Shown: positions 6,160-50,605 of the stretch, piece by piece
How positions within the stretch are numbered: the stretch's first letter is position 1
How the letters are laid out: every line of letters starts with the position of its first letter
NCBI GenBank assembly: GCA_964023275.1
Contig: OZ029914.1
Coordinates: 51,414,530-51,478,529 of the forward strand
Direction of reading: 5' to 3'
Source of the DNA: Norana najaformis
Lineage: Eukaryota; Annelida; Clitellata; Crassiclitellata; Hormogastridae
DNA length: 64,000 nucleotides
Position numbers and translations under genes: made by a program
The notes under the pieces: model-generated
The model's database searches: none
What the model saw: only the letters and a program-made list of their open reading frames with translations
Told to the model about the DNA's origin: nothing

Positions 6160-6480
6160 GTGTCCATGGTCAGTGTTCGACGCCGCCAATAAATCAGGCC
6201 GTTTACGAAGGAGCTCTGGACACATTAATGACCTGCAATAGACAAGTACCTGCATTTTGGCAGGTTATTCCAACTTCAGATGAGATGTCTACTACTGCTA
6301 TCACAAACTCTGCCGATACTGTTAATCCTTTGTATACGAGCATGTATGGAGCCAGCCAGACAGGTCTGACTATAAAGACGGCAACAACAATTCCAGGAAC
6401 AGATCCTTTTGCAACTGCTGGCTTGTATATCATAAGAAACACTACCACTGTCAGGCGGGGCGCCAAATTACTTGTCGTTC
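6160..6480 (+). CDS. Exon V1: divergent V-like Ig domain
   Basis: The exon follows TTTTCATTGTAG and ends at GTAAGT, phase 1-1, about 107 residues. It has an N-terminal Cys (GQCSTPP), a Cys in the expected B strand (LMTCNR), a Trp (AFWQVIP), the block ATAGLYIIR and the terminal strand GAKLLVVR shared with V2-V4. Unlike the other three it lacks the Cys after AGLY and keeps a B-strand Cys, so its disulphide pattern must differ. It is the most divergent V exon in the gene. The reading frame was chosen by the conserved ends and by both splice phases. The signal peptide is expected in a preceding exon that I did not identify. Confidence 0.75.
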
Positions 6481-6674
6481 GTAAGTAGACATATATACTA
6501 CTGAATATTATGGTGGTGAACTTATGAAAATCATAAAATTGTGAAGAGCGTGATGATTTTAGTGGGAGGGTTGGCATGGTAAAGCATGTCCGTGGCTACC
6601 ATCTTTCATTACCAACCTTCCAGGCTACTATAGCACAGTCCTTTCTTGCTTGGTAGGCAGGAATTTGTGTGCAA

Positions 6675-6815
6675 CTTCAACTTAACAAACTATGACAATA
6701 CTCTTTTTCTTCCATGACCACTGGTGTGACAATGTTTGACCCTACTACAATTCAAATTGAAATGTGATACCAACTGCCGGGTTGTATATTACATAGTTTG
6801 TATTATCCAGAGACA
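6675..6815 (+). pseudogene. Decayed V-like exon in the V1-C1 intron
   Basis: About 200 bases after V1 the sequence again resembles a V exon. It reads LTNYDNT (compare ITNYDGT in V3), then, after shifts and stops, a CTACTACAATTC stretch like that of V1, then IPTAGLYIT (compare PISTAGLYIG). Stops and a frameshift break it, and no usable donor remains. Confidence 0.55.
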
Positions 6816-6899
6816 TATATAGCGCATTTTAAGAACCGCATAAAGGCGCTGCATCCTGACTAGCTATCTAACAGTAGTAGAATGTGCGTTTTGAGATAG

Positions 6900-8175
6900 G
6901 CTGACAATGTTTCTTGAGCCGTTACAGGCGAAAGATTTCGAATTTTCATAGGAAGATTGTTCCGGATGGACGTTCCAATGCAAGCAATAAGATCATGCCA
7001 CAGCAGTCGGAAGGGAATCCGGAATTGAAACCTCCACGAGCAGCCGAAAACTGAAATCCGATACTTACTGCGGGGTTGTCGGTTCGGTTGGAAGAAGAAG
7101 CTCGCGGTTGTATTCTGGGGTCGAATAGAATATCGAGGTCCTCCCTATTAGAAGAATATTGAATTCTCTGCTAAACCGGAAGGCCATGCAGTGTATCTCG
7201 TATATAGTTCAAGATATGCGACAATTTTGGCAAATTTACCACAATCCGGGCAGCGCATTTGAGGACAGACTGAAGCTGGCGAGCCTGCAAGGACTGCGTT
7301 ACAGTAGTCAGGGCAAGTCATAATGAAAGAGTAACAAAGATCATTGCTGCGTCATATGATAGATTACGCCGAATGACTCTGCTCTGGCGCAGTTCGTAAA
7401 ACTAGAACCTATAGAGAGAAAGAGTTGACATGGGTCACCATCGATAGGTCTTCATCCAGGAGCACTCATAGGTCCCGGACGACATGCAATGGTTCCCAAC
7501 TCAAGAATACAGCCGCTATCATCTCATTGTGTATCTTTGATCGCTTCTGTCAGATGCCAAATCCCATGAACTGCATTTTGCGGGATACAGACGTAGCCGA
7601 TTCGATGACAACTAGATCTGTACCTTCATCACATTGGTCTGTTTCTTTGACAAACAAGTAAGTACATCCGATGGGCGACAAGTTAAGTGCAGCTGAACAT
7701 AATCAGAATATTGATGAACCATGGTTTTAAGAGCTGTGATGGCTTACGTCAAGTCGGCTGTCTACAATATGTACAGAAGAGGTCTAAGGACGGAGCCTTG
7801 TGGGATACCGCAGAGGATTGGCGCCCACTCCGACCTCTTCACTCCATTTTGGACCTTTATGGAACGCCCATCCACAAAAGAGCCTAGCCATTTCAACGGC
7901 TGACCGACAATTCTCTAGGTAGCACTGAGTCGAGTCAACAAGACGTTGTGGTCCACCGTGTCAAACGCGGCTCTGACGTCGAGAAGAGCCAGCAGCGCGA
8001 CTTCTTCAAAGTCCATGGTATAATAGATATCGAGATAGGCGGCCGGAACATGATCGTCTCAGTTGAATGGCCATTCATAAACCCCAACTGCAGTTTTGGC
8101 ATAAGGTTGCACTATTCGAGATAGCGCAATGTCTGCTGAGCCACTGTTTTCTCTTCCGTCTTTGAGATAAACGTG
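6900..8175 (-). mobile_element. CR1-like LINE relic in the V1-C1 intron
   Basis: The minus strand encodes broken reverse-transcriptase blocks: AFDTVDHNVLLTRL near 7975-7935 (catalytic block A region) and GIPQGSVL near 7815-7785. Between and beyond them the frame is interrupted by stops and indels. It is an old, non-autonomous fragment inserted antisense to the receptor gene. The plus-strand open frames in this stretch are chance readings. Confidence 0.7.
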
Positions 8176-8597
8176 AGATTGGACGATAGCTATTGATACA
8201 AATACAGTATGCAAACACTAGCAAGATTGTAAGCGCCAACGTTATTGTTGTCCTTGAGTTTTGCGCCAGTAGTTTCTGTGTAGGTGTTTTTCAAAGATTT
8301 TCGTATAGCTTGCTTAGAGTGTAATACTGCAAGTCAACATACCAAGATGACCATACAAATGAAACAAGGATTTTCTTAAAGAGTGAAAGCTAAAAACCTA
8401 AAGAATTTTTTGAAGAATGAACCTTGGATTTTTGAGATGCACTTTGAAATAATTAAACAACAAAAAAGAATCTCCTGTTGGCTTTCAACTATAGTATAAT
8501 GAACTTTTCTCATTGCCCTAATTCGACAACATGTGTACGTCTAAAATCTTTTAATTTCTTCGCCGTAATAATTTGTGTCTGATCAAATCTGCCACAG

Positions 8598-8921
8598 GCG
8601 AAGGTCCAACGTGTGCATGCAATACGACCAATTCAACTGCCCTCATTCAACTGAGCTGCAGCATCAAGTACGCCGATAGCAGTTTTCATCCTATCATGGC
8701 AGTTATGAACTGGACGTCCAACGGTAATTTCTACTACTCGGAAACGCCGACGAGGACGAGAGTTGACACATACTGGTTCGTATCAACATCAACGATCACA
8801 GTCGACGCCAATGTTGCAGCAAACTACCAATGCAATGTAACATTTGCGAAACCGACGAACATCCAGTACGCCTTTGTTGCAACAAATGCACCCGCGTTCA
8901 GTGCATCCTGCACAGTACCTT
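8598..8921 (+). CDS. Exon C1: C/I-like Ig domain
   Basis: The exon follows GCCACAG and ends before GTGAGT, phase 1-1, 108 residues. It begins GEGPTCAC and carries the canonical Ig pair LSC and YQC, with a Trp between them (VMNWTSNG). Further shared blocks are IKYADS, STSTITVD and FVATNAPAF, ending in SASCTVP. Five Cys lie in the exon and a sixth, at the start of the next stalk exon, is conserved in all four modules, so three disulphides are possible. Several N-glycosylation sequons are present. C1 pairs with V1 as the membrane-distal Ig unit. Confidence 0.88.
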
Positions 8922-9413: not shown

Positions 9414-12400
9414 TTTGCGGACCAACAACGGTTCAGTCAACGACTATAGCAGCAACAACCACTGTAAGAACATCAACCCCCAATCCCACGTCTACGACAC
9501 CAACCACGACCACAACACCGCCCACGACTACCACTACGCCACCAACCACGACCACAACACCGCCCACGACTACCACTACGCCACCAACGACGACCACAAC
9601 ACCGCCCACGACTACCACTACGCCACCAACCACGACCACAACACCGCCCACGACTACCACTACGCCACCAACCACGACCACAACTCCGCCCACGACTACC
9701 ACTACGCCACCAACCACGACCACAACACCGCCCACGACTACCACTACGCCACCAACCACGACCACAACACCGCCCACGACTACCACTACGCCACCAACCA
9801 CGACCACAACACCGCCCACGACTACCACTACGCCACCAACCACGACCACAACACCGCCCACGACTACCACTACTACGCCACCAACCACGACCACAACACC
9901 GCCCACGACTACCACTACGCCACCAACCACGACCACAACCCCGCCCACGACTACCACTACGCCACCAACCACGACCACAACACCGCCCACGACTACCACT
10001 ACTACGCCACCAACCACGACCACAACACCGCCCACGACTACCACTACGCCACCAACCACGACCACAACCCCGCCCACGACTACCACTACGCCACCAACCA
10101 CGACCACAACACCGCCCACGACTACCACTACGCCACCAACCACGACCACAACACCGCCCACGACTACCACTACGCCACCAACCACGACCACAACACCGCC
10201 CACGACTACCACTACGCCACCAACCACGACCACAACACCGCCCACGACTACCACTACGCCACCAACCACGACCACAACACCGCCCACGACTACCACTACG
10301 CCACCAACCACGACCACAACACCGCCCACGACTACCACTACGCCACCAACCACGACCACAACACCGCCCACGACTACCACTACGCCACCAACCACGACCA
10401 CAACACCGCCCACGACTACCACTACGCCACCAACCACGACCACAACACCGCCCACGACTACCACTACGCCACCAACCACGACCACAACACCGCCCACGAC
10501 TACCACTACGCCACCAACCACGACTACAACACCGCCCACGACTACCACTACGCCACCAACCACGACCACAACACCGCCCACGACTACCACTACGCCACCA
10601 ACCACGACCACAACACCGCCCACGACTATCACTACGCCACCAACCACGACCACAACACCGACCACGACTACCACTACGCCACCAACCACGACCACAACAC
10701 CGCCCACGACTACCACTACGCCACCAACCACGACCACAACACCGCCCACGACTACCACTACGCCACCAACCACGACCACAACACCGCCCACGACTACCAC
10801 TACGCCACCAACCACGACCACAACACCGCCCTCGACTACCACTACGCCACCAACCACGACCACAACACCGCCCTCGACTACCACAACGCCACCAACCACG
10901 ACCACAACACCGCCCACGACCACCACTACGCCACCAACCACGACCACAACACCGCCCACGACCACCACTACGCCACCAACCACGACCACAACACCGCCCA
11001 CGACCACCACTACGCCACCAACCACGACCACAACACCGCCCACGACTACCACTACGCCACCAACCACGACCACAACACCGCCCACGACTACCACTACGCC
11101 ACCAACCACGACCACAACACCGCCCACGACTACCACTACGCCACCAACCACGACCACAACACCGCCCACGACTACCACTACGCCACCAACCACGACCACA
11201 ACACCGCCCACGACCACCACTACGCCACCAACCACGACCACAACACCGCCCACGACTACCACTACGCCACCAACCACGACCACAACACCGCCGACGACTA
11301 CCACTACGCCACCAACCACGACCACAACACCGCCCGTGACTACCACTACGCCACCAACTACGACCACAACACCGCCCACGACTACCACTACGCCACCAAC
11401 CACGACCACAACACCGCCCACGACTACCACTACGCCACCAACCACGACCACAACACCGCCCACGACTACCACTACGCCACCAACCACGACCACAACACCG
11501 CCCACGACTACCACTACGCCACCAACCACGACCACAACACCGCCCACGACTACCACTACGCCACCAACCACGACCACAACACCGCCCACGACTACCACTA
11601 CGCCACCAACCACGACCACAACACCGCCCACGACTACCACTACGCCACCAACCACGACCACAACACCGCCCACGACTACCACTACGCCACCAACCACGAC
11701 CACAACACCGCCCACGACTACCACTACGCCACCAACCACGACCACAACACCGCCCACGACTACCACTACGCCACCAACCACGACCACAACACCGCCCACG
11801 ACTACCACTACGCCACCAACCACGACCACAACACCGCCCACGACTACCACTACGCCACCAACCACGACCACAACACCGCCCACGACTACCACTACGCCAC
11901 CAACGACGACCACAACACCGCCCACGACTACCACTACGCCACCAACCACGACCACAACACCGCCCACGACTACCACTACGCCACCAACCACGACCACAAC
12001 ACCGCCCACGACTACCACTACGCCACCAACCACGACCACAACACCGCCCACGGCTACCACTACGCCACCAACCACGACCACAACACCGCCCACGACTACC
12101 ACTACGCCACCAACCACGACCACAACACCGCCGACGACTACCACTACGCCACCAACCACGACCACAACACCGCCCGTGACTACCACTACGCCACCAACTA
12201 CGACCACAACACCGCCCACGACTACCACTACGCCACCAACCACGACCACAACACCGCCCACGACTACCACTACGCCACCAACCACGACCACAACACCGCC
12301 CACGACTACCACTACGCCACCAACCACGACCACAACACCGCCCACGACTACCACTACGCCACCAACCACGACCACAACACCGCCCACGACTACCACTACG

Positions 12401-15400
12401 CCACCAACCACGACCACAACACCGCCCACGACTACCACTACGCCACCAACCACGACCACAACACCGCCCACGACTACCACTACGCCACCAACCACGACCA
12501 CAACACCGCCCACGACTACCACTACGCCACCAACCACGACCACAACACCGCCCACGACTACCACTACGCCACCAACCACGACCACAACACCGCCCACGAC
12601 TACCACTACGCCACCAACCACGACCACAACACCGCCCACGACTACCACTACGCCACCAACCACGACCACAACACCGCCCACGACTACCACTACGCCACCA
12701 ACCACGACCACAACACCGCCCACGACTACCACTACGCCACCAACCACGACCACAACACCGCCCACGACTACCACTACGCCACCAACCACGACCACAACAC
12801 CGCCCACGACTACCACTACGCCACCAACCACGACCACAACACCGCCCACGACTACCACTACGCCACCAACCACGACCACAACACCGCCCACGACTACCAC
12901 TACGCCACCAACCACGACCACAACACCGCCCACGACTACCACTACGCCACCAACCACGACCACAACACCGCCCACGACTACCACTACGCCACCAACCACG
13001 ACCACAACACCGCCCACGACTACCACTACGCCACCAACCACGACCACAACACCGCCCACGACTACCACTACGCCACCAACCACGACCACAACACCGCCCA
13101 CGACTACCACTACGCCACCAACCACGACCACAACACCGCCCACGACTACCACTACGCCACCAACCACGACCACAACACCGCCCACGACTACCACTACGCC
13201 ACCAACCACGACCACAACACCGCCCACGACTACCACTACGCCACCAACCACGACCACAACACCGCCCACGACTACCACTACGCCACCAACCACGACCACA
13301 ACACCGCCCACGACTACCACTACGCCACCAACCACGACCACAACACCGCCCACGACTACCACTACGCCACCAACGACGACCACAACACCGCCCACGACTA
13401 CCACTACGCCACCAACCACGACCACAACACCGCCCACGACTACCACTACGCCACCAACCACGACCACAACACCGCCCACGACTACCACTACGCCACCAAC
13501 CACGACCACAACACCGCCCACGACTACCACTACGCCACCAACCACGACCACAACACCGCCCACGACTACCACTACGCCACCAACCACGACCACAACACCG
13601 CCCACGACTACCACTACGCCACCAACCACGACCACAACACCGCCCACGACTACCACTACGCCACCAACCACGACCACAACACCGCCCACGACTACCACTA
13701 CGCCACCAACCACGACCACAACACCGCCCACGACTACCACTACGCCACCAACCACGACCACAACACCGCCCACGACTACCACTACGCCACCAACCACGAC
13801 CACAACACCGCCCACGACTACCACTACGCCACCAACCACGACCACAACACCGCCCACGACTACCACTACGCCACCAACCACGACCACAACACCGCCCACG
13901 ACTACCACTACGCCACCAACCACGACCACAACACCGCCCACGACTACCACTACGCCACCAACCACGACCACAACACCGCCCACGACTACCACTACGCCAC
14001 CAACCACGACCACAACACCGCCCACGACTACCACTACGCCACCAACCACGACCACAACACCGCCCACGACTACCACTACGCCACCAACCACGACCACAAC
14101 ACCGCCCACGACTACCACTACGCCACCAACCACGACCACAACACCGCCCACGACTACCACTACGCCACCAACCACGACCACAACACCGCCCACGACTACC
14201 ACTACGCCACCAACCACGACCACAACACCGCCCACGACTACCACTACGCCACCAACCACGACCACAACACCGCCCACGACTACCACTACGCCACCAACCA
14301 CGACCACAACACCGCCCACGACTACCACTACGCCACCAACCACGACCACAACACCGCCCACGACTACCACTACGCCACCAACCACGACCACAACACCGCC
14401 CACGACTACCACTACGCCACCAACCACGACCACAACACCGCCCACGACTACCACTACGCCACCAACCACGACCACAACACCGCCCACGACTACCACTACG
14501 CCACCAACCACGACCACAACACCGCCCACGACTACCACTACGCCACCAACCACGACCACAACACCGCCCACGACTACCACTACGCCACCAACCACGACCA
14601 CAACACCGCCCACGACTACCACTACGCCACCAACCACGACCACAACACCGCCCACGACTACCACTACGCCACCAACCACGACCACAACACCGCCCACGAC
14701 TACCACTACGCCACCAACCACGACCACAACACCGCCCACGACTACCACTACGCCACCAACCACGACCACAACACCGCCCACGACTACCACTACGCCACCA
14801 ACCACGACCACAACACCGCCCACGACTACCACTACGCCACCAACCACGACCACAACACCGCCCACGACTACCACTACGCCACCAACCACGACCACAACAC
14901 CGCCCACGACTACCACTACGCCACCAACCACGACCACAACACCGCCCACGACTACCACTACGCCACCAACCACGACCACAACACCGCCCACGACTACCAC
15001 TACGCCACCAACCACGACCACAACACCGCCCACGACTACCACTACGCCACCAACCACGACCACAACACCGCCCACGACTACCACTACGCCACCAACCACG
15101 ACCACAACACCGCCCACGACTACCACTACGCCACCAACCACGACCACAACACCGCCCACGACTACCACTACGCCACCAACCACGACCACAACACCGCCCA
15201 CGACTACCACTACGCCACCAACCACGACCACAACACCGCCCACGACTACCACTACGCCACCAACCACGACCACAACACCGCCCACGACTACCACTACGCC
15301 ACCAACCACGACCACAACACCGCCCACGACTACCACTACGCCACCAACCACGACCACAACACCGCCCACGACTACCACTACGCCACCAACCACGACCACA

Positions 15401-18400
15401 ACACCGCCCACGACTACCACTACGCCACCAACCACGACCACAACACCGCCCACGACTACCACTACGCCACCAACCACGACCACAACACCGCCCACGACTA
15501 CCACTACGCCACCAACCACGACCACAACACCGCCCACGACTACCACTACGCCACCAACCACGACCACAACACCGCCCACGACTACCACTACGCCACCAAC
15601 CACGACCACAACACCGCCCACGACTACCACTACGCCACCAACCACGACCACAACACCGCCCACGACTACCACTACGCCACCAACCACGACCACAACACCG
15701 CCCACGACTACCACTACGCCACCAACCACGACCACAACACCGCCCACGACTACCACTACGCCACCAACCACGACCACAACACCGCCCACGACTACCACTA
15801 CGCCACCAACCACGACCACAACACCGCCCACGACTACCACTACGCCACCAACCACGACCACAACACCGCCCACGACTACCACTACGCCACCAACCACGAC
15901 CACAACACCGCCCACGACTACCACTACGCCACCAACCACGACCACAACACCGCCCACGACTACCACTACGCCACCAACCACGACCACAACACCGCCCACG
16001 ACTACCACTACGCCACCAACCACGACCACAACACCGCCCACGACTACCACTACGCCACCAACCACGACCACAACACCGCCCACGACTACCACTACGCCAC
16101 CAACCACGACCACAACACCGCCCACGACTACCACTACGCCACCAACCACGACCACAACACCGCCCACGACTACCACTACGCCACCAACCACGACCACAAC
16201 ACCGCCCACGACTACCACTACGCCACCAACCACGACCACAACACCGCCCACGACTACCACTACGCCACCAACCACGACCACAACACCGCCCACGACTACC
16301 ACTACGCCACCAACCACGACCACAACACCGCCCACGACTACCACTACGCCACCAACCACGACCACAACACCGCCCACGACTACCACTACGCCACCAACCA
16401 CGACCACAACACCGCCCACGACTACCACTACGCCACCAACCACGACCACAACACCGCCCACGACTACCACTACGCCACCAACCACGACCACAACACCGCC
16501 CACGACTACCACTACGCCACCAACCACGACCACAACACCGCCCACGACTACCACTACGCCACCAACCACGACCACAACACCGCCCACGACTACCACTACG
16601 CCACCAACCACGACCACAACACCGCCCACGACTACCACTACGCCACCAACCACGACCACAACACCGCCCACGACTACCACTACGCCACCAACCACGACCA
16701 CAACACCGCCCACGACTACCACTACGCCACCAACCACGACCACAACACCGCCCACGACTACCACTACGCCACCAACCACGACCACAACACCGCCCACGAC
16801 TACCACTACGCCACCAACCACGACCACAACACCGCCCACGACTACCACTACGCCACCAACCACGACCACAACACCGCCCACGACTACCACTACGCCACCA
16901 ACCACGACCACAACACCGCCCACGACTACCACTACGCCACCAACCACGACCACAACACCGCCCACGACTACCACTACGCCACCAACCACGACCACAACAC
17001 CGCCCACGACTACCACTACGCCACCAACCACGACCACAACACCGCCCACGACTACCACTACGCCACCAACCACGACCACAACACCGCCCACGACTACCAC
17101 TACGCCACCAACCACGACCACAACACCGCCCACGACTACCACTACGCCACCAACCACGACCACAACACCGCCCACGACTACCACTACGCCACCAACCACG
17201 ACCACAACACCGCCCACGACTACCACTACGCCACCAACCACGACCACAACACCGCCCACGACTACCACTACGCCACCAACCACGACCACAACACCGCCCA
17301 CGACTACCACTACGCCACCAACCACGACCACAACACCGCCCACGACTACCACTACGCCACCAACCACGACCACAACACCGCCCACGACTACCACTACGCC
17401 ACCAACCACGACCACAACACCGCCCACGACTACCACTACGCCACCAACCACGACCACAACACCGCCCACGACTACCACTACGCCACCAACCACGACCACA
17501 ACACCGCCCACGACTACCACTACGCCACCAACCACGACCACAACACCGCCCACGACTACCACTACGCCACCAACCACGACCACAACACCGCCCACGACTA
17601 CCACTACGCCACCAACCACGACCACAACACCGCCCACGACTACCACTACGCCACCAACCACGACCACAACACCGCCCACGACTACCACTACGCCACCAAC
17701 CACGACCACAACACCGCCCACGACTACCACTACGCCACCAACCACGACCACAACACCGCCCACGACTACCACTACGCCACCAACCACGACCACAACACCG
17801 CCCACGACTACCACTACGCCACCAACCACGACCACAACACCGCCCACGACTACCACTACGCCACCAACCACGACCACAACACCGCCCACGACTACCACTA
17901 CGCCACCAACCACGACCACAACACCGCCCACGACTACCACTACGCCACCAACCACGACCACAACACCGCCCACGACTACCACTACGCCACCAACCACGAC
18001 CACAACACCGCCCACGACTACCACTACGCCACCAACCACGACCACAACACCGCCCACGACTACCACTACGCCACCAACCACGACCACAACACCGCCCACG
18101 ACTACCACTACGCCACCAACCACGACCACAACACCGCCCACGACTACCACTACGCCACCAACCACGACCACAACACCGCCCACGACTACCACTACGCCAC
18201 CAACCACGACCACAACACCGCCCACGACTACCACTACGCCACCAACCACGACCACAACACCGCCCACGACTACCACTACGCCACCAACCACGACCACAAC
18301 ACCGCCCACGACTACCACTACGCCACCAACCACGACCACAACACCGCCCACGACTACCACTACGCCACCAACCACGACCACAACACCGCCCACGACTACC

Positions 18401-21400
18401 ACTACGCCACCAACCACGACCACAACACCGCCCACGACTACCACTACGCCACCAACCACGACCACAACACCGCCCACGACTACCACTACGCCACCAACCA
18501 CGACCACAACACCGCCCACGACTACCACTACGCCACCAACCACGACCACAACACCGCCCACGACTACCACTACGCCACCAACCACGACCACAACACCGCC
18601 CACGACTACCACTACGCCACCAACCACGACCACAACACCGCCCACGACTACCACTACGCCACCAACCACGACCACAACACCGCCCACGACTACCACTACG
18701 CCACCAACCACGACCACAACACCGCCCACGACTACCACTACGCCACCAACCACGACCACAACACCGCCCACGACTACCACTACGCCACCAACCACGACCA
18801 CAACACCGCCCACGACTACCACTACGCCACCAACCACGACCACAACACCGCCCACGACTACCACTACGCCACCAACCACGACCACAACACCGCCCACGAC
18901 TACCACTACGCCACCAACCACGACCACAACACCGCCCACGACTACCACTACGCCACCAACCACGACCACAACACCGCCCACGACTACCACTACGCCACCA
19001 ACCACGACCACAACACCGCCCACGACTACCACTACGCCACCAACCACGACCACAACACCGCCCACGACTACCACTACGCCACCAACCACGACCACAACAC
19101 CGCCCACGACTACCACTACGCCACCAACCACGACCACAACACCGCCCACGACTACCACTACGCCACCAACCACGACCACAACACCGCCCACGACTACCAC
19201 TACGCCACCAACCACGACCACAACACCGCCCACGACTACCACTACGCCACCAACCACGACCACAACACCGCCCACGACTACCACTACGCCACCAACCACG
19301 ACCACAACACCGCCCACGACTACCACTACGCCACCAACCACGACCACAACACCGCCCACGACTACCACTACGCCACCAACCACGACCACAACACCGCCCA
19401 CGACTACCACTACGCCACCAACCACGACCACAACACCGCCCACGACTACCACTACGCCACCAACCACGACCACAACACCGCCCACGACTACCACTACGCC
19501 ACCAACCACGACCACAACACCGCCCACGACTACCACTACGCCACCAACCACGACCACAACACCGCCCACGACTACCACTACGCCACCAACCACGACCACA
19601 ACACCGCCCACGACTACCACTACGCCACCAACCACGACCACAACACCGCCCACGACTACCACTACGCCACCAACCACGACCACAACACCGCCCACGACTA
19701 CCACTACGCCACCAACCACGACCACAACACCGCCCACGACTACCACTACGCCACCAACCACGACCACAACACCGCCCACGACTACCACTACGCCACCAAC
19801 CACGACCACAACACCGCCCACGACTACCACTACGCCACCAACCACGACCACAACACCGCCCACGACTACCACTACGCCACCAACCACGACCACAACACCG
19901 CCCACGACTACCACTACGCCACCAACCACGACCACAACACCGCCCACGACTACCACTACGCCACCAACCACGACCACAACACCGCCCACGACTACCACTA
20001 CGCCACCAACCACGACCACAACACCGCCCACGACTACCACTACGCCACCAACCACGACCACAACACCGCCCACGACTACCACTACGCCACCAACCACGAC
20101 CACAACACCGCCCACGACTACCACTACGCCACCAACCACGACCACAACACCGCCCACGACTACCACTACGCCACCAACCACGACCACAACACCGCCCACG
20201 ACTACCACTACGCCACCAACCACGACCACAACACCGCCCACGACTACCACTACGCCACCAACCACGACCACAACACCGCCCACGACTACCACTACGCCAC
20301 CAACCACGACCACAACACCGCCCACGACTACCACTACGCCACCAACCACGACCACAACACCGCCCACGACTACCACTACGCCACCAACCACGACCACAAC
20401 ACCGCCCACGACTACCACTACGCCACCAACCACGACCACAACACCGCCAACGACTACCACTACGCCACCAACCACGACCACAACACCGCCCACGACTACC
20501 ACTACGCCACCAACCACGACCACAACACCGCCCACGACTACCACTACGCCACCAACCACGACCGCAACACCGCCCACGACTACCACTACGCCACCAACCA
20601 CGACCACAACACCGCCCACGACTACCACTACGCCACCAACCACGACCACAACACCGCCCACGACTACCACTACGCCACCAACCACGACCACAACACCGCC
20701 CACGACTACCACTACGCCACAAACCACGACCACAACACCGCCCACGACTACCACTACGCCACCAACCACGACCACAACACCGCCCACGACTACCACGGCG
20801 CCACCAACCACGATTACAACACCGCCCACGACTACCACTACGCCACCAACCACGACCACAACACCGCCCACGACTACCACTACGCCACCAACCACGACCA
20901 CAACACCGCCCACGACTACCACTACGCCACCAACCACGACCACAACACCGCCCACGACTACCACTCCGCCACCAACCACGACCACAACACCGCCCACGAC
21001 TACCACTACGCCACCAACCACGACCACAACACCGCCCACGACTACCACTACGCCACCAACCACGACCACAACACCGCCCACGACTACCACTACGCCACCG
21101 ACCACGACCACAACACCGCCCACGACTACCACTACGCCACCGACCACGACCACAACACCGCCCACGACTACCACTACGCCACCAACCACGACCACAACAC
21201 CGCCCACGACTACCACTACGCCACCAACCACGACCACAACACCGCCCACGACTACCACTACGCCACCAACCACGACCACAACACCGCCCACGACTACCAC
21301 TACGCCACCAACCACGACCACAACACCGCCCACGACTACCACTACGCCACCAACCACGACCACAACACCGCCCACGACTACCACTACGCCACCAACCACA

Positions 21401-24400
21401 ACAACACCGCCCACGACTACCACTACGCCACCAACCACGACAACAACACCGCCCACGACTACCACTACGCCACCAACCACGACCACAACACCGCCCACGA
21501 CTACCACTACTCAACCTACCACGACCACAACACCAACCACGACTACCACTACGCCACCAACCACGACCACAACACCGCCCACGACTACCACTACGCCACC
21601 GACCACGACCACAACACCGCCCACGACTACCACTACGCCACCAACCACGACCACAACACCGCCCACGACTACCACTACGCCACCAACCACGACCACAACA
21701 CCGCCCACGACTACCACTACGCCACCAACCACGACCACAACACCGCCCACGACTACCACTACGCCACCAACCACGACCACAACACCGCCCACGACTACCA
21801 CTACGCCACCAACCACGACCACAACACCGCCCACGACTACCACTACGCCACCAACCACGACCACAACACCGCCCACGACTACCACTACGCCACCAACCAC
21901 GACCACAACACCGCCCACGACTACCACTACGCCACCAACCACAACAACACCGCCCACGACTACCACTACGCCACCAACCACGACAACAACACCGCCCACG
22001 ACTACCACTACGCCACCAACCACGACCACAACACCGCCCACGACTACCACTACTCAACCTACCACGACCACAACACCGCCCACGACTACCACTCCGCCAC
22101 CAACCACGACCACAACACCGCCCACGACTACCACTACGCCACCAACCACGACCACAACACCGCCCACGACTACCACTACGCCACCAACCACGACCACAAC
22201 ACCGCCCACGACTACCACTACGCCACCAACCACGACCACAACACCGCCCACGACTACCACTACGCCACCAACCACGACCACAACACCGCCCACGACTACC
22301 ACTACGCCACCAACCACGACCACAACACCGCCCACGACTACCACTACGCCACCAACCACGACCACAACACCGCCCACGACTACCACTACGCCACCAACCA
22401 CGACCACAACACCGCCCACGACTACCACTACGCCACCAACCACGACCACAACACCGCCCACGACTACCACTACGCCACCAACCACGACCACAACACCGCC
22501 CACGACTACCACTACGCCACCAACCACGACCACAACACCGCCCACGACTACCACTACGCCACCAACCACGACCACAACACCGCCCACGACTACCACTACG
22601 CCACCAACCACGACCACAACACCGCCCACGACTACCACTACGCCACCAACCACGACCACAACACCGCCCACGACTACCACTACGCCACCATCGACGACCA
22701 CAACACCGCCCACGACTACCACAACGCCACCAACGACGACCACAACACCGCCCACGACTACCACTACGCCACCAACCACGACCACAACACCGCCCACGAC
22801 TACCACTACGCCACCAACCACGACCACAACACCGCCCACGACTACCACTACGCCACCAACGACGACCACAACACCGCCCACGACTACCACTACGCCACCA
22901 ACCACGACAACAACACCGCCCACGACTACCACTACGCCACCAACCACGACCACAACACCGCCCACGACTACCACTACTCAACCTACCACGACCACAACAC
23001 CAACTACGACTACCACTACGCCACCAACCACGACCACAACACCGCCCACGACTACCACTACGCCACCAACCACGACCACAACACCGCCCACGACTACCAC
23101 TACGCCACCAACCACGACCACAACACCGCCCACGACTACCACTACGCCACCAACCACGACCACAACACCGCCCACGACTACCACTACGCCACCAACCACG
23201 ACCACAACACCGCCCACGACTACCACTACGCCACCAACCACGACCACAACACCGCCCACGACTACCACTACGCCACCGACCACGACCACAACACCGCCCA
23301 CGACTACCACTACGCCACCGACCACGACCACAACACCGCCCACGACTACCACTACGCCACCAACCACGACCACAACACCGCCCACGACTACCACTACGCC
23401 ACCAACCACGACCACAACACCGCCCACGACTACCACTACGCCACCAACCACGACCACAACACCGCCCACGACTACCACTACGCCACCAACCACGACCACA
23501 ACACCGCCCACGACTACCACTACGCCACCAACCACGACCACAACACCGCCCACGACTACCACTACGCCACCAACCACAACAACACCGCCCACGACTACCA
23601 CTACGCCACCAACCACGACAACAACACCGCCCACGACTACCACTACGCCACCAACCACGACCACAACACCGCCCACGACTACCACTACTCAACCTACCAC
23701 GACAACAACACCAACCACGACTACCACTACGCCACCAACCACGACCACAACACCGCCCACGACTACCACTACGCCACCGACCACGACCACAACACCGCCC
23801 ACGACTACCACTACGCCACCGACCACGACCACAACACCGCCCACGACTACCACTACGCCACCAACCACGACCACAACACCGCCCACGACTACCACTACGC
23901 CACCAACCACGACCACAACACCGCCCACGACTACCACTACGCCACCAACCACGACAACAACACCGCCCACGACTACCACTACGCCACCAACCACGACCAC
24001 AACACCGCCCACGACTACCACTACGCCACCAACGACGACCACAACACCGCCCACGACTACCACTACGCCACCAACCACGACCACAACACCGCCCACGACT
24101 ACCACTACGCCACCAACCACAACAACACCGCCCACGACTACCACTACGCCACCAACCACGACAACAACACCGCCCACGACTACCACTACGCCACCAACCA
24201 CGACCACAACACCGCCCACGACTACCACTACTCAACCTACCACGACCACAACACCGCCCACGACTACCACTCCGCCACCAACCACGACCACAACACCGCC
24301 CACGACTACCACTACGCCACCAACCACGACCACAACACCGCCCACGACTACCACTACGCCACCAACCACGACCACAACACCGCCCACGACTACCACTACG

Positions 24401-27400
24401 CCACCAACCACGACCACAACACCGCCCACGACTACCACTACGCCACCAACCACGACCACAACACCGCCCACGACTACCACTACGCCACCAACCACGACCA
24501 CAACACCGCCCACGACTACCACTACGCCACCAACCACGACCACAACACCGCCCACGACTACCACTACGCCACCAACCACGACCACAACACCGCCCACGAC
24601 TACCACTACGCCACCAACCACGACCACAACACCGCCCACGACTACCACTACGCCACCAACCACGACCACAACACCGCCCACGACTACCACTACGCCACCA
24701 ACCACGACCACAACACCGCCCACGACTACCACTACGCCACCAACCACGACCACAACACCGCCCACTACTACCACTACGCCACCAACCACGACCACAACAC
24801 CGCCCACGACTACCACTACGCCACCAACCACGACCACAACACCGCCCACGACTACCACTACGCCACCAACCACGACCACAACACCGCCCACGACTACCAC
24901 TACGCCACCAACCACGACCACAACACCGCCCACGACTACCACTACGCCACCAACCACGACCACAACACCGCCCACGACTACCACTACGCCACCAACCACG
25001 ACCACAACACCGCCCACGACTACCACTACGCCACCAACCACGACCACAACACCGCCCACGACTACCACTACGCCACCAACCACGACCACAACACCGCCCA
25101 CGACTACCACTACGCCACCAACCACGACCACAACACCGCCAACGACTACCACTACGCCACCAACCACGACCACAACACCGCCCACGACTACCACTACGCC
25201 ACCAACCACGACCACAACACCGCCCACGACTACCTCTACGCCACCAACCACAACAACACCGCCCACGACTACCACGACGCCACCAACCACGACAACAACA
25301 CCGCCCACGACTACCACTACGCCACCAACCACGACCACAACACCGCCCACGACTACCACTACTCAACCTACCACGACCACAACACCAACCACGACTACCA
25401 CTACGCCACCAACCACGACCACAACACCGCCCACGACTACCACTACGCCACCAACCACGACCACAACACCGCCCACGACTACCACTACGCCACCAACCAC
25501 GACCACAACACCGCCCACGACTACCACAACGCCACCAACCACGACCACAACACCGCCCACGACTACCACTACGCCACCGACCACAACAACACCGCCCACG
25601 ACTACCACTACGCCACCAACCACGACAACAACACCGCCCACGACTACCACTACGCCACCAACCACGACCACAACACCGCCCACGACTACCACTACTCAAC
25701 CTACCTCGACCACAACACCAACTACGACTACCACTCCGCCACCAACCACGACCACAACACCGCCCACGACTACCACTACGCCACCAACCACGACCACAAC
25801 ACCGCCCACGACTACCACTACGCCACCAACCACGACCACAACACCGCCCACGACTACCACTACGCCACCAACCACGACCACAACACCGCCCACGACTACC
25901 ACTACGCCACCAACCACGACCACAACACCGCCCACGACTACCACTACACCACCAACCACGACCACAACACCGCCCACGACTACCACTACGCCACCAACCA
26001 CGACCACAACACCGCCCACGACTACCACTACGCCACCAACCACGACAACAACTCCGCCCACGACTACCACTACGCCACCAACCACGACCACAACACCGCC
26101 CACGACTACCACTACGCCACCAACCACGACCACAACACCGCCCACGACTACCACTACGCCACCAACCACGACCACAACACCGCCCACGACTACCACTACG
26201 CCACAAACCACGACCACAACACCGCCCACGACTACCACTACGCCACCAACCACGACCACAACACCGCCCACGACTACCACTACGCCACCGACCACGACCA
26301 CAACACCGCCCACGACTAACACTACGCCACCAACCACGACCACAACACCGCCCACGACTACCACTACGCCACCAACCACGACCACAACTCCGCCCACGAC
26401 TACCACTACGCCACCAACCACGACCACAACACCGCCCACGACTACCACTACGCCACCAACCACGACCACAACACCGCCCACGACTACCACTACGCCACCA
26501 ACCACGACCACAACACCGCCCACGACTACCACTACGCCACAAACCACGACCACAACACCGCCCACGACTACCACTACGCCACCAACCACGACCACAACAC
26601 CGCCCACGACTACCACTACGCCACCGACCACGACCACAACACCGCCCACGACTAACACTACGCCACCAACCACGACCACAACACCGCCCACGACTACCAC
26701 TACGCCACCAACCACGACCACAACACCGCCCACGACTACCACTACGCCACCAACCACGACCACAACACCGCCCACGACTACCACTACGCCACCAACCACG
26801 ACCACAACACCGCCCACGACTACCACTACGCCACCAACCACGACCACAACACCGCCCACGACTACCACTACGCCACAAACCACGACCACAACACCGCCCA
26901 CGACTACCACTACGCCACCAACCACGACCACAACACCGCCCACGACTACCACTACGCCACCGACCACGACCACAACACCGCCCACGACTAACACTACGCC
27001 ACCAACCACGACCACAACACCGCCCACGACTACCACTACGCCACCAACCACGACCACAACACCGCCCACGACTACCACTACGCCACCAACCACGACCACA
27101 ACACCGCCCACGACTACCACTACGCCACCAACCACGACCACAACACCGCCCACGACTACCACTACGCCACCAACCACGACCACAACACCGCCCACGACTA
27201 CCACTACGCCACCAACCACGACCACAACACCGCCCACGACTACCACTACGCCACCAACCACGACCACAACACCGCCCACGACTACCACTACGCCACCAAC
27301 CACGACCACAACACCGCCAACGACTACCACTACGCCACCAACCACGACCACAACACCGCCCACGACTACCACTACGCCACCAACCACGACCACAACACCG

Positions 27401-35642: not shown

Positions 35643-35963
35643 GGGAAGGTCCACTCTGTTCATGCGTTTCGGACAACCTAGCTACTTCCAATGTATCCTG
35701 TAACATCACTTACGCTGACAGCACTCTTCATCCGATAAATCCGCGAATGACCTGGAAAGTCAATGGAGTCGTTGTGGACACAAAGGTAGCCGAGAGGACG
35801 AGGATTGATCCGTATGTGTTCGCTGCCACATCAACGATTACAGTCGACAGCAGCGTTCCTGCGACCTACGAATGCGAACTGACGTTTGAGCCACCAACAG
35901 ACCCACAGTTCTCATTCGTCGCCACGAATGCACCGGAGTTTAACGAATCGTGCTCAACACCAG
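35643..35963 (+). CDS. Exon C2: C/I-like Ig domain
   Basis: The exon follows TCTTGCAG and ends before GTGAGT, phase 1-1, 107 residues. It opens GEGPLCSC and carries the canonical pair VSC (B strand) and YEC (F strand), with Trp in RMTWKVNG. It then has FAATSTITVDSSV and FVATNAPEFNESCSTP. The five-Cys pattern matches C1, C3 and C4, with the sixth Cys at the start of stalk2. Confidence 0.88.
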
Positions 35964-36491: not shown

Positions 36492-37121
36492 TATGTGCAC
36501 TCACAACAACAGGCCAGTCAACGACAAGTACAACTCAGTCACCGACGACAAATACTCCTTCGTCAACAACAACTACTCCCCCTACAACCACTACGCCACC
36601 AACCACGACCACTACTCCACCAACCACGACCACAGCACCGCCCACGACTACCACTACGCCACCAACGACGACCACAACACCGCCAACCACTACCACTACG
36701 CCACCAACGACTACCACAACACCACCAACCACTACCACTACGCCACCAACGACGACCACAACACCGCCCACGACTACCACTACGCCACCGACCACGACCA
36801 CAACACCGCCCACGACTACCACTACGTCACCAACCACGACCACAACACCGCCCACCACTACCACTACGCCACCAACCACGACCACAACACCGCCCACGAC
36901 TACCACTACGCCACCAACCACGACCACAACACCGCCCACGACTACCACTACGCCACCAACCACGACCACAACACCGCCCACGACTACCACTACGCCACCA
37001 ACCACGACCACAACACCGCCCACGACTACCACTACGCCACCAACCACGACCACAACACCGCCTACGACTTCCACTACGCCACCAGCACCTACTTTCGAGC
37101 AAACGACTACCGCACAAACAG
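36492..37121 (+). CDS. Exon stalk2: Thr/Pro mucin-like, 210 residues
   Basis: The exon follows TTTTTCAG and ends before GTCAGT, phase 1-1. The correct frame begins CALTTTGQSTTSTTQSP, runs through TTTTTPP repeats and ends in APTFEQTTTAQTG. It has no internal Met early on, so a search for ATG-started frames misses it and reports frames that are out of register. The repeat uses the same 42-base dimer as stalk1. It also carries two adjacent rare variants (ACGTCACCAAC and CCCACCACTACC, 36824-36860) seen together at 30225-30262 in stalk1, so the two exons share a block by duplication or conversion. Confidence 0.85.
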
Positions 37122-37904: not shown

Positions 37905-38243
37905 TTATCAATTGTTCAGAGAATCTGCGGAATGTCAAGAACATAGCGGTTTATGAGGGACAGCTGAATACAATAATGAATCTATCAGCTAACCCACAAG
38001 ACACAATGTGGACAATTAAACCAACGAATGACGAATTTGAAACTTACTCTATAACCAATTACGACGGTACTATAGATCCCTCGTTGGCTGGGCTCTTTGC
38101 CATAAACGAGACCGGTCTAATAGTAAAGAACGCGACAACGACTGAAAATTATGATAAAGGTGATCCGATATCAACGGCTGGGTTGTACATCGGACAATGT
38201 GCTAACAATCCGAACAAGACCGGCGCCAAGTTACTCGTCGTTC
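37905..38243 (+). CDS. Exon V3: V-like Ig domain
   Basis: The exon follows CTTTCAG and ends before GTAAGT, phase 1-1, 113 residues. It differs from V2 at few positions (for example INCSENLRNVKN, MWTIKPTNDE, ITNYDGT) and has the same two-Cys pattern with no B-strand Cys. The nucleotide identity with V2, including silent sites, shows that these modules separated recently or are kept alike by conversion. Confidence 0.87.
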
Positions 38244-38724: not shown

Positions 38725-39048
38725 GCAGTGGTCCACAATGTTCATGCAGTCCCATCAATTTGAACAACAGCGTCAACCTGTCATGCAGTGTCTCTTTTGC
38801 CGATGGCACCATCCACCCTATCCCTGCTGTTATGACATGGATAGTCAACGGAGCATATCATTCAACGGAGACACCTACTCGGAATAAGACGGACGGATAT
38901 GTCTTCGTGGCAACGTCAACCATTACAGTTGATAGCAGCGTTGTCAGTAATTATCAATGTCTACTGACATTCGGTGCACCAACTGATATTCGATATAATT
39001 ATATCGCGGTGAACGCACCAGAGTTCAACGAATCTTGCTCAACGCCAG
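38725..39048 (+). CDS. Exon C3: C/I-like Ig domain
   Basis: The exon follows TCTTACAG and ends before GTGAGT, phase 1-1, 108 residues. It opens GSGPQCSC and carries LSC and YQC as the canonical pair, Trp in VMTWIVNG, FVATSTITVDSSV and NAPEFNESCSTP. It is closest to C2, in keeping with module 2-3 duplication. Confidence 0.88.
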
Positions 39049-39285: not shown

Positions 39286-39339
39286 TGTGCGGCAGTCAGT
39301 CAACGACAACAGCCGTTTCAACTGCTGCAATGACAACAA
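39286..39339 (+). CDS. Exon stalk3: minimal 18-residue stalk
   Basis: The exon follows TTGTTTTCAG and ends before GTAAGA, phase 1-1, only 54 bases. It reads CGSQSTTTAVSTAAMTT, with the invariant leading Cys and the QSTT motif shared with stalk1 and stalk2, but no TTTTTPP array. It may show the state before satellite growth, or a collapsed array. Confidence 0.75.
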
Positions 39340-42750: not shown

Positions 42751-42751
42751 C

Positions 42752-43747: not shown

Positions 43748-44077
43748 CTTCGATTGCTCCATGCTCAGCGCCACTCAAGAACACCGCCGTTAAAGAGGGA
43801 GATCTGAATACACTCCTATATTTTCCAGCTGACCCGAACAACGTTAAGTGGACGGTTACTCCAACGACGAATGAGTTAGACGAATACGTGATCACAAATT
43901 TTGACGGTACAGTAGATCCTTCTATGGCGGGAGACTATGCAATTGGTCCATCCGGTTTAACGGTACTCAATGCAACAACAACAGCCGAAGATCCACATCC
44001 GTTATCAACGGCTGGATTGTACAAGGTACAATGCGCCGGCGAAACCGTAGTCCGCAGCGTCAAGCTTCTTGTCGTCC
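43748..44077 (+). CDS. Exon V4: V-like Ig domain
   Basis: The exon follows ATTTCAG and ends before GTAAGT, phase 1-1, 110 residues. Blocks are APCSAPLKNTAVKEGDLNTLLYFP, VKWTVTPTTNE, FDGTVDPSMAGDYAIGPSGLTVLNATTT, STAGLYKVQC and VKLLVVR. It has two Cys in the V2/V3 pattern and no B-strand Cys (a Tyr sits there instead). Its sequence lies between V1 and V2/V3 in divergence. Confidence 0.85.
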
Positions 44078-44410: not shown

Positions 44411-44528
44411 AGCTAACCATTGGGTTATACAAATGTACTAGGTACAAAGTGCCGACTGCCCAAAAACGCCAAGTTTTTTGTCGTTCGTAAGTTATTCGAA
44501 TTTCAACAGCCAATCTTTCGCCATCTTT
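44411..44528 (+). pseudogene. Decayed 3' end of a V-like exon plus intron start, V4-C4 intron
   Basis: The sequence TTGGGTTATACAAATGTAC through AACGCCAAGTTTTTTGTCGTTC to GTAAGT at 44487 repeats the end of V4. The copy continues past the donor, because CCAATCTTTCGCCATCTT occurs both here and after V4. The short reading (KCRLPKNAKFFVVR) is open with a phase-1 donor, but the 5' two thirds of the exon are missing. Confidence 0.72.
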
Positions 44529-44529
44529 G

Positions 44530-46027: not shown

Positions 46028-46354
46028 ATGAAGGTCCAACGTGTACGTGCACTCCGGGCAGTTCCTCAACCAGCGTTGATTTGTCGTGCGGTGTTATTTA
46101 TGCTGATAGCACATACTCTCCTATCCCACCAGTTTTTACATGGTATCGTGATGGTATTTTCTATGCTAATTATACGCCTGACGTCAGGACTCCCTCTGAT
46201 GACAGTTTATACGCCACTGAGAAATCCACCATTACGGTCGATGATAGTACGACTTCGACCTATAGATGCGTTCAGACATTTGGCCAACCAAAGGACATTC
46301 AGGAGAATGTTGCAACGAACGCGCCGGAGTATAGTCAGGACTGCACACCATCGG
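46028..46354 (+). CDS. Exon C4: C/I-like Ig domain
   Basis: The exon follows GTGTTGCAG and ends before GTAAGT, phase 1-1, 109 residues. It opens DEGPTCTC and carries the canonical pair LSC and YRC, Trp in VFTWYRDG, STITVDDSTT and VATNAPEYSQDCTPS. It is the most divergent of the C domains, though its Cys pattern is intact. It is the membrane-proximal Ig domain. Confidence 0.87.
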
Positions 46355-48292: not shown

Positions 48293-48403
48293 CATGTGGA
48301 CCCACTGCTCAATTCCTACAGCTTCCTGTTGTTCCAGCACCTCAAGACCCTCCAACTGCAACGACCCTCCAACCACAAGGGGTCGTTGCTTCAACCACAA
48401 GAG
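48293..48403 (+). CDS. Exon stalk4: 37-residue juxtamembrane stalk
   Basis: The exon follows ATCTGTTTAG and ends before GTCAGT, phase 1-1. It starts with the invariant Cys (CGPTAQFLQLPVV) and continues Pro/Thr-rich (PAPQDPPTATT, then VVASTTRG), without the 42-base satellite. It joins C4 to the transmembrane exon. Confidence 0.75.
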
Positions 48404-48802
48404 GTCAGTTTTGTCATTCGTCTATTCGCCTCCTCAGGCTGAAACAATCGCAATAGGGCAGGTGGGCTTTGCAACAAGTAAGAAAACGTCTGCTCATTTG
48501 TCAGAATGGTACCACTTTGCATTTCAGCTGAAAGATCATTCACAGCCGCATAGTTGCACCTATTACAGCTAATCAGGTTTATTTCACATCGTTTCATCCG
48601 ATGTAGCATATTATAGAGCGACATGAACACCAGAGCTTCATTAAAGTTTAGGGTAAGAGTTATTCTGGTCAAGTGAAAAGCATAAACCTTAATTGTAGCT
48701 CGAACTCTTCATGTATAAGCTTATAATTTATCTTGCTCGCCAGTTAAATGAGCATTGAGCAGGCTGTATGATATGTGTTCTGTTCTGGTGTTGATCTTGT
48801 AG

Positions 48803-48932
48803 ATTCTGCTCTGACGACTTTGGAAATTGTACTGATTGTTATTGTCGGGTGTTTGCTTCTGACGGTTCTTGCCTTCTTCATTTGGTGTTGTCGGTTCTGT
48901 TCTGGAGGAAAGCGAATTATAAGAACTCACTG
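48803..48932 (+). CDS. Transmembrane exon
   Basis: The exon follows TTGATCTTGTAG and ends before GTAAGC, phase 1 to phase 2. It encodes DSALTTLE, then a hydrophobic span of about 20 residues (IVLIVIVGCLLLTVLAFFIW). A Cys-rich basic inner flank follows (CCRFCSGGKRIIRTH), as expected for a type I single-pass protein. The juxtamembrane Cys are possible lipidation sites. The splice phase and position make it the membrane anchor of the receptor. Confidence 0.87.
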
Positions 48933-49089
48933 GTAAGCACCATCTAAGCACAAGTCACCATTTATCGTTAGATTTTCTATTGTTTTTCTAATACAAACCT
49001 TTTCATTTTCGAACTGATGATATATAATTGGTTGACCTCCTTTCTATATGAGCGCAAGCTCTGTGTTGTTTATGGCCAATCCCGCTCAC

Positions 49090-50090
49090 CTTGGGTTCCT
49101 TCCTTGTTTGGATTGCCTCAGGGGTCAGTTTTGGGTCCCTTTATATACTGTTTACTGCTTACCTTGGCTCTGTGGTAGCCGCGAGCTCGGCTTCAAGCCA
49201 GTCCTATGCTGATGATGTGCAGGCCTATATTCATTGTTCTGCTTCTGATGCCGCAGTTGCTGTTCGAGCTATGTGTTGTGCTTCTGACTCCCTTGTGGCT
49301 TGGATGTCTATAAATCGATTGAGATTGAATCCTTCCAAGACTCAATATATTTGGTTGGGCACTAGGCAGCAATTGGCTAAAATCAATCTACCTGAACTGC
49401 ATTTAGAGTTTCCTCACATCACCTTCTCAGTCACTGTTTATGACCTTGGCATTGAGCTAGATCAGGAGCTCTCTTTTAAGGCTCAGGTTCATCGTCTCTG
49501 TCCTAGTTGCTACTACCAGCTACGGCAACTTCGTGTTGTCTCACGTTCTGTCTCAGTTACCTCATCTAAGACTCTGGTTCATGCATTTGTCACTAGTCGG
49601 TTGGATTACTGCTCTTCTTTATATGTTGGACTCCCTGATGTACGGCTTTTGTGCCTGGAACGTGTGTTGCGGGCGGCTGCACGGATTATTGGTGGTATCT
49701 CTAGATTTGGTCATGTCTCCGATTTCATGCGGGATGAGTTGCACTGGCTTCCTATGAGTCAGCGCATCCACCATAGGGTCATTGTATTTGTTTGGAACTC
49801 GTTGTTGGGTATTGCCCCCTCTTATTTACCCCGGTCTAATTTGGGACGTGCTTCTCTTCGTTCCGCCGTTAGCGGTAATCTATTAGTGCTGGCCCAACCC
49901 TCTGGAATGGACTTCCTCTTACTCTACGTCTTCTACCCCGGGATTTTACTTCTATCTTGTATCTTCTATTCTTCTCTTAAGACTGTTCTCTTTCGCGGAG
50001 GTTGGTTTGGGAGCGCTTCTGAGTAGTTTTCTTAAAGGGGCGCTATATAAGTGTTCTGTATAAATAAATAAAATAAAATATAAAAACAGT
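49090..50090 (+). mobile_element. CR1-like LINE, C-terminal reverse transcriptase, in the TM-tail intron
   Basis: An open frame of 311 codons carries the catalytic block SQSYADDVQAYIH (about 49195-49235), then LRLNPSKTQYIWLG, TSRLDYCSSLYVGLP and RDELHWLPMSQRIHHR. It ends in a 3' region with GGGAGCGCTTCTGAG and an AATAAATAAAATAAAATA tail near 50060-50090. It is 5'-truncated and comparatively young, as its frame is nearly intact. It is not part of the receptor. Confidence 0.85.
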
Positions 50091-50409
50091 ATTACTGATT
50101 GCAATCACTCTGGATTTGTTTTCTCTTAATTCTCACCCTAAAAATGGTGAGAGTAAGAGGAAAATTTCTGACCTCTAATGATACAACGAATTTAACTGAA
50201 ATCCAGGAACTGGAAAAAAGCTTACTGTCAAAAGCCTATTACAAGAATGTCTGCACTTTTAATTTTTATCAGTGGCTTTTTGGAAGCCACCAGTGATACA
50301 TAATCTCGAATCTCTTGACAATATATTGTGAGATCGATATACGGCCTATGCTAAGGCTTCTTCAGCGAAAAATTTACGCTGTATAATAGTTTCTGTTCTT
50401 TGACTGCAG

Positions 50410-50605
50410 GAACAGGCGTGAAAGCTTGGAGCCGTACAATGCGTGGGATTACAGTTTGGAAGGAAGAGCGAGAATCCAGATGCCGGTGAATCGCTCTTGG
50501 GTGCTGTCTTCCAATTCCTTTAATTCGCAAGAAACGCCGTACGGATTTCGCCTTCCACAAACAGACCCTCGGATCAAATTTCGATACATGCGCTCATTGG
50601 TCTAG
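50410..50605 (+). CDS. Terminal exon: cytoplasmic tail
   Basis: The exon follows TTTGACTGCAG and starts in the phase needed by the transmembrane exon (the split codon gives Trp). It stays open for 64 codons to TAG at 50603-50605. The tail has four Tyr, in contexts EPYNAW, DYSLEG, TPYGFR and RYMRSLV, several Arg, and many Ser. None of these is a textbook ITAM or ITIM, so signalling through them is only a possibility. The exact match of phase, the acceptor with a pyrimidine run and the open frame support the call. No clear AATAAA follows within about 150 bases. Confidence 0.7.

Follow-up and report, generated by a model that had tools for sequence, protein, structure and literature searches.

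We wondered whether the exons between positions 6160 and 50605 of a 64,000-nucleotide stretch of Norana najaformis DNA (contig OZ029914.1; hereafter the window) form a single gene, and what purpose its product might serve. The original prediction had proposed that 14 exons assemble without a break into an Ig-mucin receptor of about 8,500 residues. Indeed, joining the exons gives a single open frame (8,508 codons with the stop counted, 8,507 residues), whereas 57 and 64 stops interrupt the two remaining frames. AG/GT signs accompany every exon and the last one closes with TAG. The proposed layout was also right: V-C-stalk repeated four times, a transmembrane segment and a 64-residue tail, with long Thr/Pro repeats confined to stalks 1 and 2. 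As anticipated for the extracellular exons, introns 1-12 (12 of 13) are in phase 1, and the intron between transmembrane segment and tail is in phase 2. A six-frame profile scan recovered four V and four C exons, with no match better than E 0.6 elsewhere in the window; Rfam and tRNA scans returned nothing. The features are as follows.

5934..5941, + strand: TATA-like CTATAAAA, 226 bases ahead of V1
6160..6480, + strand: V1 exon, phase 1-1, V-like Ig domain (exon joining, profile scan)
8598..8921, + strand: C1 exon, C-like Ig domain (profile scan, paralogue comparison)
9414..31193, + strand: stalk 1, a single 21,780-base exon of 7,259 full codons
34092..34430, + strand: V2 exon (exon joining, profile scan, genome-wide V matches)
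35643..35963, + strand: C2 exon (exon joining, profile scan, paralogue comparison)
36492..37121, + strand: stalk 2, 209 residues, with the 42-bp unit of stalk 1 at 36587-37084
37905..38243, + strand: V3 exon, protein 87% identical to V2
38725..39048, + strand: C3 exon, predicted Ig fold, nearest mainly to C1-set
39286..39339, + strand: stalk 3, 17 residues (paralogue comparison)
43748..44077, + strand: V4 exon (exon joining, profile scan, paralogue comparison)
46028..46354, + strand: C4 exon (exon joining, profile scan, paralogue comparison)
48293..48403, + strand: stalk 4, 36 residues
48803..48932, + strand: transmembrane exon, a hydrophobic stretch followed by CRFCSGGKR
50410..50605, + strand: cytoplasmic tail exon, 64 residues and stop

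The stalks are thus very unequal in length. The sequence of exon 48803-48932 reads as a single C-terminal transmembrane segment with a basic stop.

The exons from 6160 to 50605 are coding. Among 12 paralogous V-V and C-C exon pairs, the eight older ones gave dN/dS values of 0.16-0.44, the V2-V3 pair reached 1.07 and three C pairs were saturated. Young paralogue pairs had pN near or above pS (V1, 0.073 vs 0.044; C4, 0.066 vs 0.047). Tails showed pN/pS of 0.25-0.92 in 14 of 15 pairs and of 1.75 in the youngest pair. The high values for the young pairs, V2-V3 and the youngest tail pair reflect either diversification or relaxed constraint.

Profile searches and structure prediction had been named as checks of the original prediction. 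The former stayed below the Pfam cut-offs: none of nine exon proteins passed, the best being PF00047 with 18.9 vs 21.8 bits, and among 114 family members at E 0.1 we found Ig_3 in three and ig in two (best E 0.0019). The latter gave Ig-like folds for the two models considered, C3 of the window (pLDDT 92.1) and the V-C relative P0001 (pLDDT 93.8). Both models match Ig proteins and are predicted to adopt the Ig beta-sandwich. The folds nearest to the C3 model were mostly C1-set (MHC, IgNAR, CL, CH2), with D4 of nematode SYG-2 in third place by Foldseek; for C3 alone Foldseek found no match at E 0.001 or better. When the C profile was compared with solved structures, all seven weak matches (E 0.03-1) lay in antibody or MHC chains, whose domain set is an assumption; the V profile had one unrelated match (E 0.82). 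With V2-C2 as a single-sequence query, the V part matched 7awy_A ('Scone-R') at E 3.2e-4, though no stretch passed by itself, and the C part matched an antibody light chain at E 0.018. The P0001 model resembles PD-L1 and antibody light chains, with TM-scores of 0.31-0.46 in whole V-C alignments to solved chains. The predicted heads nevertheless differ from PD-L1, B7-1, SIRP-alpha and the antibody light chain, with 10-22% identity in the rows shown and whole V-C TM-scores below 0.5. Moreover, these proteins have no mucin stalks, and most V members of the present family lack the B-strand Cys. The canonical B-F disulphide is absent from the family pattern: the F-strand Cys occurs in 86% of 101 V rows and B-strand columns carry at most 10% Cys. 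In V1 the B-strand region does contain a Cys, and the F-strand Cys is missing. Of 13 V segments that we marked off ourselves, the BC and FG loops were the most variable (2.12 and 2.28 bits), compared with 0.64 bits for strand G.

The gene is not alone. Genome-wide, 88 V matches including fragments were found; 67 of them lie in a single cluster near a chromosome end, 66 of these on one strand. At least six cluster genes have a common transmembrane exon and tail: a match to the transmembrane exon precedes all six tails, which are of equal length. V1 of the next gene is 93.4% identical to V1 of the window and contains no stop. One paralogue carries about ten near-identical tandem V3-C3-stalk 3 modules, four of them damaged, followed by V4-C4-stalk 4, transmembrane exon and tail. 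The Lys/Glu-rich end of another relative, P0002, was considered as a stalk and rejected, as it resembles sequence behind the C donor. No relative was confirmed in the genome contigs and viral contigs searched. Botryllus was considered as the source of the DNA and dropped on weak grounds: a 20-base botryllin primer (PMC9966394), which could span a splice, had no site in this genome when up to one mismatch was allowed, and GH6 gave no match here or in any control genome. For COX1, the genome yielded broken nuclear copies only, on C15, with a sequence suggestive of annelid COX1.

Coding tests, predicted folds and the exon order kept in the paralogue together give good support to the view that the gene encodes a giant modular Ig-mucin membrane protein, as first proposed. 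As for its role, we have about as much confidence as doubt that the members of this clustered multigene family are type I recognition receptors, with four V-C heads in the window gene, acting in immunity or self/non-self discrimination. Recognition of this immune or self/non-self kind is probably what such a receptor family would serve, and by analogy with other recognition systems the multigene cluster and the module amplification strengthen the idea. The protein would be displayed at the cell surface as four V-C Ig-like heads parted by Thr/Pro stalks, of which one is of enormous length. O-glycosylated stalks may keep the heads far off the membrane, the V loops would most likely bind ligands carried by other cells or by microbes, and the tail, short and conserved, could link binding to signalling in the cell. 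The V-C-stalk unit is the putative unit of duplication; as it is bounded by phase-1 introns, heads could be gained or lost without damage to the frame while V exons diversify.

The same gene might instead encode a structural glycocalyx or adhesion mucin serving spacing, lubrication or constitutive adhesion, with Ig heads that cross-link. The composition of stalk 1 (5,142 Thr and 2,048 Pro among 7,259 residues) fits such a product, and by eye we recognised no known signalling motif in the six tails; ITIM, hemITAM and YxxL/I/V, by their usual definitions, were absent. Giant mucins such as MUC16 are likewise membrane proteins with one huge in-frame exon of tandem repeats, but are not known to carry Ig heads. 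Against this reading, the credible stalk exons following other C exons in the examined portion of the cluster measure just 17-36 residues, although after about ten C exons our search rules detected none or a doubtful one, the 42-mer core of stalk 1 was not found in the 200 kb upstream, and the tail is conserved. We also judge it unusual for a structural mucin to form a clustered family whose V-C modules are amplified, and consider this identity unlikely.

We infer that all of the modules reside in one transcript. In the spliced-looking relative P0021, V, C and a Thr/Pro stalk are united at predicted junctions; V1-C1-stalk 1 is tied to the later modules by phase and order only. Since all extracellular exons are in phase 1, any subset of them stays in frame, so the V-C-stalk exons might be alternatives, or V1-C1-stalk 1 might belong to a separate transcript, and the 8,500-residue product would be made rarely or never. 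It fits this idea that no relative matched a multi-module query of 602 residues, with no long multi-module one among 7,994 scored, and that P0001 and P0002, which appear to continue beyond the C donor, could represent a short V-C form. Yet the order from V3 to the tail is preserved in the paralogue, and stalk 1 holds its frame over 21.7 kb, whereas in the next gene the corresponding region appears decayed. The open frame of stalk 1 by itself proves nothing, since none of the three forward frames of the 42-bp array (about 516 copies, 9492-31141) is closed over long distances. Its changes, however, are distributed 34:29:119 over the codon positions (119 of 182 at third positions), and its ten length changes each amount to a net three bases, with split gaps as read. 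These two properties support coding. Distinct substitution types (15:11:24, p 0.07) show a weak third-position preference, weak because array copies share changes. Separate use of the modules seems to us quite improbable. That the assembly mis-sized the array, or that it is mostly a passive satellite inside the exon of a far shorter protein, is suggested by units about 98% alike and signs of 2,178-base higher-order copying, but is very hard to reconcile with the net-three length changes, the third-position bias and the in-frame 42-bp unit of stalk 2.

We then compared the putative recognition receptor with described systems. The Hydractinia Alr family, whose 41 members carry V-set and I-set domains, is similarly a clustered multigene family of IgSF receptors in an invertebrate; the review's passages on Alr mention no repeated V-C-stalk modules (PMC11999971). 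The predicted C3 domain of the window is nearest mainly to C1-set folds. Botryllus fester co-receptors (FcoR), tied to histocompatibility, are also a large family of type I membrane proteins with V-type Ig; they comprise 520-610 residues, with one sushi domain, a pair of C2 domains and in some cases ITIM or hemITAM in the tail, features that were not seen in the window gene (PMC12065747). VCBPs are V-domain immune proteins of invertebrates that have a chitin-binding domain (PMC4757023). Pfam at E 1 detected no such domain among the nine exon proteins scanned, all outside the stalks. Titles and abstract openings in the literature yielded no description of a V-C-stalk receptor family, and our alignment matches were all unlabelled proteins resembling the family itself. 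The original claim that no described family fits is therefore supported as far as tested: judged from sequence, the gene appears to represent a family without a passing Pfam model.

If true, this would be an Ig receptor family not yet filed. Counts of its cassettes could then be compared from one individual to the next, which would allow joint tests of copy number, V variation and recognition behaviour. C1 sets are not known outside jawed vertebrates; a search of titles and abstract starts found no literature on this confinement. If confirmed by a solved structure, C1-set-like domains outside jawed vertebrates would bear on the origin of the V-C receptor architecture. Tentatively, and with considerably more doubt than confidence, we suggest that clustered germline receptors with V and C1-set-like domains arose in an invertebrate lineage independently of vertebrates. 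Antigen receptors and the proteins that partner them have this architecture. Such receptors might be built from shuffled phase-1 cassettes, in one gene with a stalk of thousands of residues, and their immune or allorecognition function might be diversified by head copy number.

At the 5' end, the open frame of V1 starts at 6147, with no Met ahead of V1 in frame. One candidate signal-peptide exon (4572-4650) was noted; it is unsupported and falls within none of the three stretches in common with the DNA upstream of the next gene. The TATA-like element at 5934..5941 recurs ahead of V1 of the next gene, in an alignment to genome coordinates C2:51479525-51480539, and possibly represents a promoter.

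The original prediction was a gene of 14 exons at 6160-50605 of the window, encoding four V-C-stalk modules, a transmembrane (TM) segment and a tail in about 8,500 residues. Indeed, all 14 exons are present on the + strand with AG/GT signals. Joined, they give one open frame of 8,507 residues, with 57 and 64 stops in the other two frames. The claimed phase 1-1 of the extracellular exons also held, with 12 of 13 introns in phase 1 and the remaining one, between TM and tail, in phase 2. A six-frame profile scan of the window detected V and C exons, four of each. Full codons number 106-112 per V exon, 106-108 per C exon, 42 for TM, 64 for the tail and 7,259, 209, 17 and 36 for stalks 1 to 4 (S1-S4). 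The V1 open frame lacks Met and the protein start was not found there; one candidate signal-peptide exon was seen, unsupported. The case for one gene is best supported over the stretch between V3 and the tail, and V1-C1-S1 is its weakest part.

The window gene is coding and not a product of chance. Eight of 12 V-V and C-C pairs within the window have a dN/dS of 0.16-0.44, the young V2-V3 pair reaches 1.07 and three pairs, all of C exons, are saturated. As the 42-bp array of stalk 1 is free of stops in three frames over long stretches, the openness of this stalk was left out as evidence. We instead compared the array with its consensus unit and found 182 substitutions, distributed 34/29/119 over codon positions 1/2/3. 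When every change type was counted once the distribution was 15/11/24 (p 0.07), a weaker third-position bias because changes are common to several copies. Length changes, which the aligner had broken into one- and two-base pieces, read by place as ten three-base events, two of them gains and eight losses. The losses are spaced in a way that suggests a higher-order duplication of 2,178 bases within the array (window 9492-31141).

Behind C1 of the next gene, no stalk exon was found by the search rules and Thr/Pro pieces are interrupted by stops; the core of the 42-bp array was not found in the 200 kb of upstream DNA examined. These observations suggest that the giant stalk is, as far as seen in the sequence, peculiar to the window gene. 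At the rise of 0.2-0.25 nm per residue typical of mucins, the length of stalk 1 would be well above one micrometre.

The host genome comprises 608 Mb in 17 contigs, with contig C2 accounting for 51.80 Mb; the window occupies C2:51414530-51478529. V2 gave 88 genome matches (broken pieces counted), 67 of them within C2 51.04-51.71 Mb and 66 of these on the + strand; the other 21 are divided between a different part of C2 (36-42 Mb) and contig C6. Throughout the 284 kb of cluster examined, intact V and C exons alternate; the exceptions are fragments of V, modules with damage and a C-like group that stands apart. Judged from position only, the window gene has four V exons, and the four gene ends that come after it account for 9, 7, 5 and 4 V matches. 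TM and tail occur in six copies, all on the + strand, at C2 51.23-51.65 Mb. The six tails are 64 residues each, with no known motif recognised. Of their 15 pairs, 14 have a pN/pS of 0.25-0.92, and the youngest pair stands at 1.75. Eleven exons were compared with the cluster DNA examined; for each of them the best match over the full length was stop-free, with nine gapped codons in total (two in C1, six in C2, one in V4). The V1 exons of the window gene and the next gene are 93.4% identical, and the DNA preceding them is 66% identical in alignment, with CTATAAAA common to both. Young paralogue pairs have pN near pS, which may reflect diversification or relaxed constraint. C2:51109746-51167462 holds five divergent exons of C-like type, spaced at 11-21 kb and with no V match listed between them; they are perhaps a second Ig family within the cluster.

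One paralogue, ending at 51230623, carries ten V3-C3-S3 modules followed by V4-C4-S4-TM-tail.

C2:51201903-51223466, ten V3-C3-S3 cassettes, spaced about 2,239 bases apart

Its protein is identical to that of the window gene at 94% (S4), 98% (TM) and 91% (tail). The first four cassettes are 99.96-100% alike and four of the ten modules, in mid-array, are damaged as assembled, reflecting either recent amplification or assembly trouble. Because each extracellular exon is phase 1-1, whole V-C-stalk cassettes can be duplicated with the reading frame intact, and the tandem gene shows that such copying has occurred. Short V-exon relics close behind intact V exons (C2:51202340-51202399 and equivalents; E 1.1e-3 in the tandem gene) suggest birth and death of V exons. 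Window relics at ~38340-38430 and ~44400-44490 were noticed by eye, and their profile scores are not significant.

A V2-C2 query retrieved 20 relatives among 169 candidates and an alignment query 107 among 4,677, all at E <= 1.9e-17 and none of the 107 with a Pfam label; a 602-residue multi-module query found none. The majority of 42 relatives inspected look like single exons continuing into their introns. At the protein sequence level, the 412-residue relative P0021 runs from V through C into a Thr/Pro stalk, and both of its joins fall at the junctions predicted from the window, with Arg following the V domain and Val-Cys preceding the stalk. Its residues ~285-412, after this unit, are Cys-rich and gave no Pfam match at E 0.5. 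In two further relatives, P0001 and P0002, C follows V without an intron and the sequence apparently reads beyond the C donor; a short V-C form, incompletely spliced RNA or a case of intron loss may explain them.

The predicted product would present four V-C heads on Thr/Pro stalks, with a single membrane anchor and a conserved short tail; surface display, O-glycosylation and signalling are presumed. V segments are most variable in the BC and FG loops. We regard ligand recognition by the heads, most likely immune or self/non-self, as an evenly balanced prospect. Clustered IgSF receptors are a known kind, and passages on the Hydractinia allorecognition family Alr (PMC11999971) and the Botryllus fester co-receptors FcoR (PMC12065747) describe families that resemble this one in that respect. 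The V-C-stalk cassette, the C1-like C domain and the giant stalk fit no system found in the literature searched, in line with the claim of an unmatched family.

Other features noted in the genome include LINE-like reverse transcriptase fragments within and beside introns of the window gene and, upstream of it, an open frame resembling a zinc finger.

Window 1514-2143 and 7762-8058, - strand, LINE-like reverse transcriptase fragments, recognised by eye
Window 42150-43370 and 49052-50026, + strand, LINE-like reverse transcriptase fragments, recognised by eye
Window 2968-3306, + strand, C2H2 zinc-finger-like open frame (PF24757, E 4.7e-4, below cut-off)
C15:412069-412726 and C15:570464-571281 (contig C15), broken nuclear copies of mitochondrial COX1

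The one LINE-like fragment scanned matched no Pfam family. Intact COX1 was absent among four genome matches, and the flank of the copy at C15:412069-412726 reads like COX2.
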